A stretch of 64,000 bases of DNA from Cellulosilyticum lentocellum DSM 5427 (lineage in GTDB: Bacteria; Bacillota; Clostridia; Lachnospirales; Cellulosilyticaceae), in assembly GCF_000178835.2 (NCBI RefSeq), contig NC_015275.1:3307001-3371000 (forward strand), given 5' to 3'. A program made the position numbers and the translations under genes. Below the pieces are notes generated by a model. The model was not told the origin of the DNA. It saw nothing but the letters and a program-made list of their open reading frames with translations, and did not search any database. Shown one piece after another: positions 3,316-48,606 of the stretch (position 1 is the first letter of the stretch; each line of letters starts with the position of its first letter).

Positions 3316-4252
3316 TGCCTCTACCTACCTTTTCTAATACATTTCGTAAGGTATCACTATCCTCTACGTTTAAAATAGTGGCTTCTGGTGCCATCTTTTT
3401 AACTAAGTTACTTAGTGTACATTTAGGCCCCACCTCTATAAAGGTGTCAAAGCCTTGACTTACTAAATAATGAATACTTTCTCTAAAACGTACACCTTTA
3501 ACGACTTGAAGAGGAATATTCTCTATAATCTCTTCTCTATTCATAGGCCCTGCACTCACATTACTGATTACCTCTACTTGTGGCTCCTTGAAATCAAGAG
3601 TTACAAGCTCTTTAGCTAACTTTTCTTTAGCTTCTTCCATAAGTGAACTATGAAAAGCGCCACTTACTTTAAGAGGTAACACACGTTTAGCGCCTGCTTC
3701 CTTTAATTTTAAGCTAGCTAGCTCTAATGCTTCTTTCACGCCTGCTATGGTTACTTGTCCTTCACAGTTATCATTAGCTACTTCCACTGGTAAATGACTC
3801 TCCTCGCTAATAGCCTCACAAACTGCTTTGATTTCTTCTATGCCAAGACCAATAACTGCTGACATGCCACCTGGATTTTTATTGGCTGCTTCTTCCATAT
3901 AGGTTGCTCTTTTATCAACTAATGTTAAAGCTGTTTTAAAATCTAAAGCCCCACTGGCAGTAATAGCATCATATTCGCCAAGACTAAAACCAAGCATAGC
4001 ATCTGCTTTCAACCCATTGGCTTCTAGTACTTTATAAATCGCATAGTTAGTTGTAAAAAGGGCAGCTTGGGTATAACGTGTTTGATTAATAAGTGCATGA
4101 GAATCAGTGAAGCATACTTCTCTAACGTCCCAATCTAGAACGCTAGCTGCTTCGTCAAATAATTGTTTTACAATAATATAAGAATCGTATAAGTCCTTGC
4201 CCATACCAACGTACTGTGCACCTTGGCCTGGAAATAATAGGGCTGCTTTCAT
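3308..4252 (-). CDS. fabD: Malonyl-CoA:ACP transacylase FabD
   Basis: The 314-residue protein starts MKAALLFPGQGAQYVGMG and has the nucleophile elbow GFSLGE (Ser90) and catalytic His201 (GAFHSSLM), the serine/histidine dyad of malonyl transferases. It moves malonyl from CoA to ACP. A GTG three codons upstream falls inside the AGGAGGTG ribosome binding site, so the ATG at 4252 with six-base spacing is preferred. It lies 12 bp after fabK and overlaps fabG. Confidence 0.95.
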   Translation of the reverse strand: MKAALLFPGQGAQYVGMGKDLYDSYIIVKQLFDEAASVLDWDVREVCFTDSHALINQTRYTQAALFTTNYAIYKVLEANGLKADAMLGFSLGEYDAITASGALDFKTALTLVDKRATYMEEAANKNPGGMSAVIGLGIEEIKAVCEAISEESHLPVEVANDNCEGQVTIAGVKEALELASLKLKEAGAKRVLPLKVSGAFHSSLMEEAKEKLAKELVTLDFKEPQVEVISNVSAGPMNREEIIENIPLQVVKGVRFRESIHYLVSQGFDTFIEVGPKCTLSNLVKKMAPEATILNVEDSDTLRNVLEKVGRGNA

Positions 4253-46589: not shown

Positions 46590-46879
46590 TTCCTCCTCCA
46601 CTCATTTAATCTTCTTTATTATAACCTTAATACACTCAATTAACATTATATTTAGAATTCTTTAATCATTATTAGAGAGTTAATTTATCCACTCCATAGA
46701 CATAAATGTAAAAGTGAAGTCTCCTTTTCATAATGTGAACTTAGGATAACAACTAGATAACTTTATGTCTAAAAAATTTTAAACTTGTCACAACAAATAA
46801 ATACGAGTCATATAATGTACCATGACTACAATATATCCATATATATTCTAGTTAAATCATATTATTAGGAGATGGTATT

Positions 46880-47164
46880 ATGAGTTGTTTAAGATCAGAT
46901 TCATGTAGAGGGCATAATCATTTCAAAGTAAGTCGCTCTAATAGTAGTTCAAGTGACTCTTCTAGAAGATCTAGTCGTAGGTCAAGACGTTGCAGAAGGT
47001 GTCGTCGCCGTTCAAGTGATTGTTTTAATCGTTGTGGTTGCAATTCATGGGGCCGTAGAAATTGCCGTTGCCGTTCAAGACGTTCTTCTAGCCGTTCTTT
47101 TAGCCGTAGCCGTTCTTTCAGTCGTAGTCGTTCTTTTAGTCGTAGCCGTTCTTTTAGCAGATAA
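46880..47164 (+). CDS. Small Arg/Ser-repeat protein, likely kinase substrate
   Basis: This 94-residue, very basic protein is made almost only of Arg, Ser, Cys and a few Phe, Asn and His. Residues 1-20 (MSCLRSDSCRGHNHFKVSRS) lead into RS/RR/CR runs. The last 25 residues are four copies of SFSRSR-type repeats, also visible as DNA repeats. AGGAGATGG precedes the ATG. A Ser/Thr kinase gene begins 35 bp downstream. Bacterial proteins of this composition (for example CotG-like spore coat proteins) are phosphorylated on many serines. Codon use follows the gene's frame, so it is not an artefact of repeats. Function is inferred. Confidence 0.75.
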   Translation: MSCLRSDSCRGHNHFKVSRSNSSSSDSSRRSSRRSRRCRRCRRRSSDCFNRCGCNSWGRRNCRCRSRRSSSRSFSRSRSFSRSRSFSRSRSFSR

Positions 47165-47199
47165 TCGTAAAAAATTAATTAAAAGTAGATGTTGTGTAT

Positions 47200-47919
47200 A
47201 TGGATAAATATTATAAACCCGGAGAACAAATAAATGGATACTCTATTACTGAGATGTTGGCTGAAGGGCGATATGGCATAGTTTATCTAGCTGAAAGTCA
47301 TGAGTCCAAAAAATATATTATTAAACAACTCAAAAAAAATATGCTTAGGGAAACAAAAGAAAAATTATTTTACGAGGAAGTACTATTAAAAAAATTAGAC
47401 TCCCCTTGTTTTCCTAAGTTTATAGGAAAATTTAATCTTCCTAATGCAAAAGGCTATATATTAGAATATATGGAAGGTCAAGTTTTTGAAGATTTACTCA
47501 TGGAAGATGGCCATCAGTTTACCAAAAAAGAAATCTATGAAATTGCCTTTAAAATGTTAGACATTATTGCCATACTACAAAAAAACAATATTGTTCACCG
47601 TGATATTAGACCTCCCAATGTTATCTTAACAGATAGTAATGAACTCATATTAATAGATTTTGGATTAGCTCGCTATATAGACAATAAAAAATATGTAAAA
47701 AAAATGGATTACTGGTATCTAGGGGATTTTTTAATTCATTTATATTACACCTCCTATTATTTTGATGAAACCGAAGAAGAAAGACCTTGGTACGAAGAAC
47801 TGGACTTAACAGAAAAAGAAAAGGTATTTCTTCAGCGACTATTGGAGATTAAAGAAAGCTATGTAGAACTTGACGAGATAAGAAGTGATCTCAAAGAACT
47901 CGAAGAAAGCTTCTTATAG
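47200..47919 (+). CDS. Small eukaryotic-like Ser/Thr protein kinase
   Basis: The 240-residue protein is only a kinase domain: glycine loop LAEGRYGIVYLAE (20-32), Lys42 in IIKQL, catalytic HRDIRPPN (His133-Asn140, Arg replacing the usual Lys) and DFG at 153-155. There is no membrane helix and no PASTA repeats, unlike PknB. It resembles small sporulation kinases such as YabT in type. A GTG two codons upstream is possible. The gene follows an Arg/Ser-repeat protein gene and is probably in the same transcript, so that protein is the obvious substrate. Confidence 0.88.
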   Translation: MDKYYKPGEQINGYSITEMLAEGRYGIVYLAESHESKKYIIKQLKKNMLRETKEKLFYEEVLLKKLDSPCFPKFIGKFNLPNAKGYILEYMEGQVFEDLLMEDGHQFTKKEIYEIAFKMLDIIAILQKNNIVHRDIRPPNVILTDSNELILIDFGLARYIDNKKYVKKMDYWYLGDFLIHLYYTSYYFDETEEERPWYEELDLTEKEKVFLQRLLEIKESYVELDEIRSDLKELEESFL

Positions 47920-48024
47920 TTTGCATAAACCTTAACTTTAAAGATAAACCATATAGTTACGCCCTCCATAACTATATGGTTTATCTCTTTATTACATTTT
48001 ATAAATTTGATTCAGGTGATAATG

Positions 48025-48606
48025 ATGTCAAACTCAAGTGAAATAATTAGAATATATCAAGATAGTTTTAAAGTCAATGTTTATACGGTATCGCCATTTA
48101 GGATGATAGGCTTAATTAATGTAGACATTAAATACCCTTATGGCATAGAAAAGGTAACTCTTGCTTTTTATAGCTCTTCTGGGACCAATAGTGGGAAAAT
48201 CAAAGACCTATGGTATCCTATTGTTGGTATAAAAACCACCACTGGTCCATTTACAGAGTTTACTGATTACCTTAACTTTGTTCTATCCTATACGACTAAA
48301 GATGGCTTTGCTAAACATGGGTGGCTAGCTAAGTCACTTTTCTTTTATGCAAAAACCCATGATGCCTCAAAACTTAGGGGCTTTGCTAATGGCAAATACT
48401 ATGACTCACTTCTAAAAATCAGTAAAACACTTAGAAATTTATACGACATAGGCAGATTTCATCATTTAACCTCATTAACACCTACTCTTTTAAATAGCGC
48501 CGTTACTTCACATAAAATTTATTCCGGAAATAAACACACACAAAAAGAAAACTATGAAAAATACATTGAGGATATATTCACTCATGCCAAACCTAATCAG
48601 GTTTAA
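48025..48606 (+). CDS. Hypothetical protein
   Basis: The 193-residue protein has no signal or membrane segments. It contains a beta-rich N-terminal half (FKVNVYTVSPFRMIGLINVD) and a helical C-terminal half. I do not recognise the family. The start at ATG 48025 follows AGGTG by six bases; TTG at 48007 is an alternative. A small inverted repeat near 47950-47985 (ATAAACCATATAG with CTATATGGTTTAT) separates it from the kinase gene and may be a terminator. Confidence 0.6.
   Translation: MSNSSEIIRIYQDSFKVNVYTVSPFRMIGLINVDIKYPYGIEKVTLAFYSSSGTNSGKIKDLWYPIVGIKTTTGPFTEFTDYLNFVLSYTTKDGFAKHGWLAKSLFFYAKTHDASKLRGFANGKYYDSLLKISKTLRNLYDIGRFHHLTSLTPTLLNSAVTSHKIYSGNKHTQKENYEKYIEDIFTHAKPNQV

Follow-up and report, generated by a model that had tools for sequence, protein, structure and literature searches.

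CotH of Bacillus is the best-known example of an enzyme that phosphorylates spore-surface proteins; in Clostridia, to our knowledge, the subject is largely open. In the cotB-cotG-cotH cluster of Bacillus subtilis, CotH polyphosphorylates Ser-rich repeats and shapes the outer coat (excerpt of PMC7821199). The same excerpt describes ExsB, a repeat protein of the Bacillus cereus group exosporium, as phosphorylated on threonine, most likely by a CotH homologue. The eukaryotic system used here for comparison is that of the SRPK kinases and SR proteins (excerpts of PMC5293202 and PMC9818988); SRPK kinases have a large spacer insert in the kinase core (PMC5293202, in excerpt). The bacterial spore kinases CotS, YtaA and YutH are CAK kinases, and ytaA and cotS lie with glycosyltransferase genes (PMC2860764, in excerpt). 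Hanks-type kinases of spore-forming Firmicutes include YabT, which has a transmembrane segment (excerpt of PMC3708118), and Clostridium difficile CD2148 and PrkC, which have a transmembrane segment and PASTA domains, respectively (excerpt of PMC9674922). Here we describe a gene module of Clostridia that links a minimal Hanks-like kinase to a short Ser-rich protein; no paper on it was found in the open-licence literature, which lacks most subscription journals.

The module was recognised in a window of 64,000 nucleotides from Cellulosilyticum lentocellum DSM 5427 (contig NC_015275.1, positions 3,307,001 to 3,371,000), part of a single-contig genome of 4,714,237 bases. Positions below are those of the window, and all features lie on the forward strand. 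An earlier note on this DNA had reported a 94-residue protein rich in Arg, Ser and Cys, encoded next to a kinase, and the sequence confirms both genes: the Ser-rich protein, hereafter the partner, is encoded at 46880-47164, and the ATG of a kinase of 239 residues (47200-47919) follows 35 bp past its stop codon. The partner is the only one of the 195 open reading frames of at least 40 residues in the window with more than 20% Ser and more than 15% Arg. Beyond these two genes, the locus has an N-terminal motif in the partner, a third gene (48025-48606), a sigma-K type promoter and two hairpins.

The kinase assignment rests on Pfam, an alignment and a structural model. The HRD and DFG motifs and the catalytic Lys listed in the earlier note are present, and the match to PF00069 has an E value of 2.4e-25. 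All hallmarks of Hanks-type kinases can be located: the Gly loop, the VAIK Lys, the αC Glu, the HRD Asp with its Asn, DFG and the αF Asp. Alignment A3, from which L096 and L097 were left out, has 42 sequences, and all of them share Lys42, Glu59, Asp135 (HRD), Asn140, DFG 153-155 and Asp170. An AlphaFold2 model has a pLDDT of 93.3, and its top PDB match is PknB (E 2.6e-14, TM 0.77). The best Pfam family is Pkinase; APH covers 34 catalytic-loop residues at 23.3 bits, against a cut-off of 23.2. Of the 263 positions of the PF00069 profile, the match reaches only as far as position 152. Asp153 of DFG is only 17 residues from Asp170 of αF and there is no APE-like motif, which means that the kinase has neither an activation loop nor an APE motif nor a P+1 loop. 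Weak matches to Bud32, RIO and ABC1 models fit the missing activation segment. Judged from its sequence and model, the kinase is probably soluble. With the activation segment missing, the enzyme would not need loop phosphorylation, and would choose its substrate through docking.

CotH has an atypical, Fam20C-related kinase-like fold, and the earlier note was right to separate the module kinase, which is Hanks-like with PknB as its top structural match, from it: no match to PF08757, the CotH domain, was found in a Pfam search at E 0.01. Among the kinase's 18 NCBIfam matches at E 0.01 there is no CotS-named model (TIGR02906 is presumably the CotS-type model in that library). With no CotH match and a best family that is not CotS-type, the module resembles these systems in function and not through common ancestry. 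The spore kinases CotS, YtaA and YutH share with the module kinase a spore association, which in our case is predicted, and some of them are under sigma-K; the module kinase differs from them in its nearest kin, which are Hanks kinases, and in its linkage to a Ser-rich protein. It is also unlike YabT, CD2148 and PrkC, as it consists of a kinase domain alone, lacks an activation segment and is encoded with a partner of its own. CD2148 was set aside as a relative by its description, as a protein with a transmembrane segment and without the catalytic Asp and Asn (excerpt of PMC9674922). The SRPK/SR system resembles the module in combining an enzyme of the protein kinase fold with an RS-dipeptide protein and, if our reading is correct, in a docking element apart from the tail. 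The large spacer of SRPKs is absent from the 239-residue kinase by alignment and model, SRPK is not named among the best 60 of 1888 PDB matches, and Arg is not needed in all relatives of the partner.

The kinase and its partner are conserved together well outside this strain, the check that the earlier note had asked for. Searching 59 genomes (the window's own and relatives) with the kinase brought up the window's gene and seven clear orthologues, and in 8/8 of these loci a short Ser-rich protein is encoded directly upstream. We then scanned genome contigs with two peptide patterns, a procedure that may miss members, and obtained 51 loci; 42 of these (L031-L072, not all independent) contain kinase orthologues with 42-64% identity, all from Clostridia, and the other nine (L073-L081, 18-31% identity) were treated as other kinases. 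Two loci had been reached twice (L002/L031 and L003/L067), and one of each was counted. The hosts belong to several families and include Cellulosilyticum, Clostridium, Romboutsia, Paraclostridium, Faecalimicrobium, Anaerotignum, Anaerocolumna, Lacrimispora and Epulopiscium, among others; the nearest relative of the window's kinase is from a Cellulosilyticum. A partner gene is present in 42/42 loci: directly upstream of the kinase in 35, downstream of the third gene in six (L036, L042, L058, L061, L062 and L064) and interrupted in one. Of the 35 upstream partners, those of L054 and L060 were recognised by motif alone and that of L067 by tail alone. By tblastn, no such partner lies beside any of 22 other Hanks kinases from relatives. 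Presence in all 42 loci, in two gene orders, is hard to explain by passive linkage. The interrupted partner, in L065, is located upstream of the kinase (at 3465) and its frame is broken after about 19 codons; Arg/Ser coding continues in another frame after the early stop, and the break may stem from faulty assembly, the genome being derived from a metagenome.

The window's partner consists of 34% Ser, 31% Arg and 10% Cys. A GHNHF motif at residues 11-15 is followed by a tail in which Ser alternates with other residues and by C-terminal SFSR repeats, and the C-terminus reads SFSRSRSFSRSRSFSRSRSFSR. The SFSRSR repeats described in the earlier note correspond to an 18-bp unit present in 3.9 copies at 47089-47158 (Tandem Repeats Finder). 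Ser-rich basic repeats of this kind are also found in CotG-like Ser/Lys/Arg repeat coat proteins. CotB and CotG share the Ser/Lys/Arg-rich repeats with the module. Of 37 partners, whose start codons were set by a Shine-Dalgarno rule, 35 contain the motif G-x-x-[HYF]-[YF] (shuffled sequences: mean 1.7, maximum 6), and its Gly is residue 11 in 26. The partner of L062 has the form GHKDY, and those of L049 and L067 combine a Ser-rich tail with the lack of a strict motif. On sequence grounds, we infer that the motif is a docking motif for the kinase.

What is kept in the tail is a serine at about every second position; Arg and Cys vary. Alternation of Ser reaches z>3 in 20/37 partners, and the intervening residue is Arg in L033, L038 and L051, Lys in L040 and L044, Asn in L045 and L053, and Gly or Tyr in L046. 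Retention of the alternating serines while the residues between them change suggests selection on the serines. The Arg/Ser chemistry emphasised in the earlier note is not a constant feature, as 17/37 partners have tails with 20% Arg or more. Nor does cross-linking through Cys, also put forward there, generalise: 27/37 partners have no Cys in the tail or 1% at most, and the ten with at least 3% include three from Cellulosilyticum. ExsB, a multiply phosphorylated repeat protein of the spore surface, is comparable to what the partner is predicted to be.

The pair, which the earlier note took for the module, is not the whole of it. Outside Epulopiscium there are three genes, and the third adjoins the kinase in 38/38 loci as well as in the window, where it follows after a gap of 105 bp (48025-48606). 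It encodes a protein of about 190 residues (193 in the window), with β-strands followed by helices. No match to Pfam, NCBIfam, PADLOC or PHROG was found at E 0.01, and the lack of a Pfam or NCBIfam match sets the module apart from the CotH cluster. Foldseek gave no usable match (best E 0.084 in the PDB and 0.099 in viral models) and neither did VIA-align (best Z 4.0), a result that does not show a new fold. Since its invariant residues include no Asp, His or Cys, the idea of a metal-dependent phosphatase is argued against; possibly it is a phospho-reader or a structural coat protein.

The third gene is present in 0/22 genomes that lack a main-clade kinase, a set made up of four Cellulosilyticum, Epulopiscium with its genus mates, and outer clades. 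It is present in 5/391 genomes of a class-wide draw of Clostridia, always beside the kinase, and in 10/71 genomes of the family of Romboutsia, one of which has two copies. New loci found by way of the third protein (L158, L160-L165) have partner, kinase and third gene in 7/7 cases. Across 33 loci, distances between kinases are correlated with those between third proteins (r 0.72, against at most 0.32 in permutations). In a quick kinase tree, a branch with an SH-aLRT of 89 sets off the third-gene bearers (36 rows), with Epulopiscium as their neighbour. Given this patchy distribution, the module is accessory, and sporulation in general does without it. In G410, two third-gene copies (L160 and L166) lie beside partner genes of differing types.

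The window's promoter (46790-46816) consists of AC at 46790-46791, a 17-nt spacer and CATATAAT at 46809-46816, and ends 63 nt before the partner start codon. C. difficile sigma-K promoters have AC at -35 and CATATAAT at -10 (excerpt of PMC3789822), and AC-N17-CATATAAT before the operon agrees with these elements. We searched for the strict pattern AC-N16-18-CATAnnnT in the 140, 170 (downstream partners and the later set found via the third protein) or 500 nt upstream of genes. Within 140 nt it occurs before 26/37 partner genes (200 shuffles: mean 1.4, maximum 6), and at the same loci before 0/37 kinases and 2/34 third genes. It precedes one of 197 other genes, which turned out to be the partner of L063, hence 0/196. 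The aligned sites mostly read like GTAACA-N16/17-TCATAATATA. Where the partner is placed downstream, its gene has the strict promoter in 5/6 loci and a near match in the sixth, and the kinase, being first in the set, has a sigma-K type promoter in 4/6; in L065 the strict pattern lies 200 nt before the kinase, ahead of the interrupted partner gene. Altogether the strict promoter is found in 32/39 third-gene loci (26+5+1, window included), in 4/7 loci of the later set and in 0/5 Epulopiscium loci. This placement before partner genes suggests a role in sporulation, as the earlier note had surmised.

A sigma-E pattern precedes 15/37 partner genes (shuffles: mean 2.1), an excess expected from the -10 element common to sigma-E and sigma-K; from the promoter letters, the module might alternatively be under sigma-E. 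A sigma-K model scores above its curated cut-off in 33/45 genomes searched, a count in which G004/G392 and G005/G427 are apparently the same genomes counted twice and the genome of L036 is left out. At E 0.001 all 45 genomes match, but so do 11/14 control genomes, and matches at this level are thus uninformative. The sigma-K gene is in two parts 5.5 to 9 kb apart in G393, G417 and G421, as in skin-type insertions, and in two adjoining parts in G404 and G005, as with a frameshift.

Our favoured reading, held with moderate confidence, is that of a mother-cell kinase/substrate module of late sporulation, serving the spore coat or exosporium in the manner of CotH-CotB/CotG with an unrelated kinase. 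Kinase, client and third protein would be made together in the mother cell late in sporulation under sigma-K. The N-terminal G-x-x-[HYF]-[YF] motif would let the partner dock on the kinase, and the kinase, having no activation loop to switch, would probably be active as made and would phosphorylate the serines of the disordered alternating-Ser tail. The 94-residue protein of the window is thereby the predicted, and probable, substrate of the adjoining kinase. The charged, polyphosphorylated tail and the third protein would be built into a surface layer, coat or exosporium, in a role that parallels that of CotB/CotG phosphorylated by CotH in Bacillus subtilis.

Conservation of the motif with differing tails fits a docking motif joined to an exchangeable client tail, and keeps a second explanation alive as well. 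The small protein could be an activator, scaffold or localiser of the kinase, with the third protein or other coat proteins as the real substrate; function would then reside in the G-x-x-HY motif, and the Ser-rich tail would serve as a low-complexity tether or would self-assemble. The motif is indeed the best conserved part of the partner, the Arg, Lys and Asn content of the tails varies, and the third gene is closely linked. The partners of L054 (4680-4961, RRGNKYYS) and L060 (4680-4961, RRGHKYYS) keep the motif in front of non-repetitive tails of about 75 residues with only 14% Ser, and outgroup partners have apparent zinc ribbons instead. Against this stand the Ser alternation, which is kept in 20/37 partners at z>3 while the residues between change, and Epulopiscium, which keeps the pair without the third protein. 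On balance we consider the adaptor explanation unlikely, though worth carrying forward.

The composition of the window's partner (31% Arg, 34% Ser, 10% Cys) would also suit a protamine-like condenser of nucleic acid whose binding is tuned by phosphorylation, just as SRPK1 phosphorylation tunes protamine binding. Arg and Lys together reach at least 20% of the tail in 24/37 partners. The remaining 13 are of SN, SG, SY or SK types or not Ser-rich; they include L045, with 1% Arg and 4% Lys in its tail. Such partners make nucleic-acid packing, which the earlier note had offered beside a coat role, unlikely as a general function, and leave it conceivable for the window's protein. Moreover, sigma-K is active in the mother cell, apart from spore DNA. 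We rate condensation as very improbable. Still less credible is the idea that the kinase serves in anti-phage defence and targets the small protein, suggested by its PADLOC matches to mad6 (E 6e-29) and PD-T4-6 kinases, because the best matches fall on the general kinase domain (for mad6, residues 7-170), the partner and third protein match no defence model, and the promoter is of sporulation type.

Returning to the kinase/substrate reading, the layout is like that of CotH-CotB-CotG: three clustered genes, a kinase with Ser/Lys/Arg-rich repeat proteins, and a putative role at the spore surface. By analogy, the module is likely a second way of building a phosphorylated spore layer. The earlier note's view that a Hanks-type kinase is used here instead of CotH does not hold as a general rule: a CotH-domain protein is encoded in 21/47 genomes searched, and in 19 of the 43 that bear the module, which is therefore no simple stand-in for CotH. 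In some species it may stand in for it. The one CotH-domain gene of the window's genome (matches at 362154-363695) encodes a protein of 669 residues with a lipoprotein-like N-terminus by eye, and no Ser-rich gene was seen beside it in a 9-kb stretch. Confirmation of our reading would mean an independent invention of Ser-repeat polyphosphorylation. A compact set of three genes, for which a docking motif and a promoter are predicted, makes the idea directly testable, and the SR, SK, SN and SG tails beside related kinases provide a natural series.

A wider reading, to which we give an even chance, is that of an unnamed bacterial family of minimal kinases, each beside a tethered client with a G-x-x-[HYF]-[YF] docking motif. 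One branch would have gained the third protein and sigma-K control for a polyphosphorylated alternating-Ser spore layer, convergent with both CotH-CotG and, in eukaryotes, the SRPK-RS system. Other branches would have zinc-ribbon or poly-Ser clients, perhaps outside sporulation, and Epulopiscium would have kept the pair in a group of which one lineage, type B, produces live offspring in place of endospores. In the outer clades (L093-L097, L108-L114), the kinase is preceded by a small protein with the motif (GSRHYKR, GSNYYKR, GGKHYRK), whose tail is poly-Ser, ends in KSSWS or is an apparent zinc ribbon. The distant kinases of L093-L097, L111 and L113 are closely preceded by G-x-x-HY proteins with apparent C-terminal zinc ribbons that are not Ser-rich, a related kinase-client design. 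Four Epulopiscium genomes and the related G013 encode the pair and lack the third gene; read from their first start codons, the two frames share 10-13 bp. In type B Epulopiscium, offspring formed inside the cell take the place of division, and C. lentocellum is its closest endospore-forming relative with a complete genome (excerpt of PMC3416734). The module may have been reassigned in Epulopiscium; type B may or may not be among the five genomes. Matches of sigma-A type (TTGAAC, TATAAT) were noted by eye in L068 and L069, and over the whole set such matches are not above chance (5/37, shuffles mean 3.2).

Finally, the locus contains two hairpins. The first, in the 5' untranslated region (46823-46854, z -5.4), is located directly 3' of the promoter. 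In relatives, the stretch after the -10 element has z<-2 in 17/25 loci compared with 14/147 control stretches of 45 nt, with z from mononucleotide shuffles; the structure recurs, the sequence seemingly not. The second (47942-47986) has a CCAT/ATGG stem, is terminator-like and occupies the gap between kinase and third gene, the same place as in relatives. This gap hairpin has z<-2 in 29/32 gaps, seven loci with gaps under 40 nt not having been folded. Rfam gave sub-threshold microRNA matches only. In alignment A4, made from 29 hand-picked sequences with L033, L044 and L062 left out, the CCA/TGG pairs are invariant and 8/12 pairs change on both sides (shuffled mean 5.4). A module-specific RNA was considered and downgraded, as model R1 also matches terminator-like hairpins at gene ends elsewhere; these similar hairpins are mostly intergenic, like ordinary terminators.
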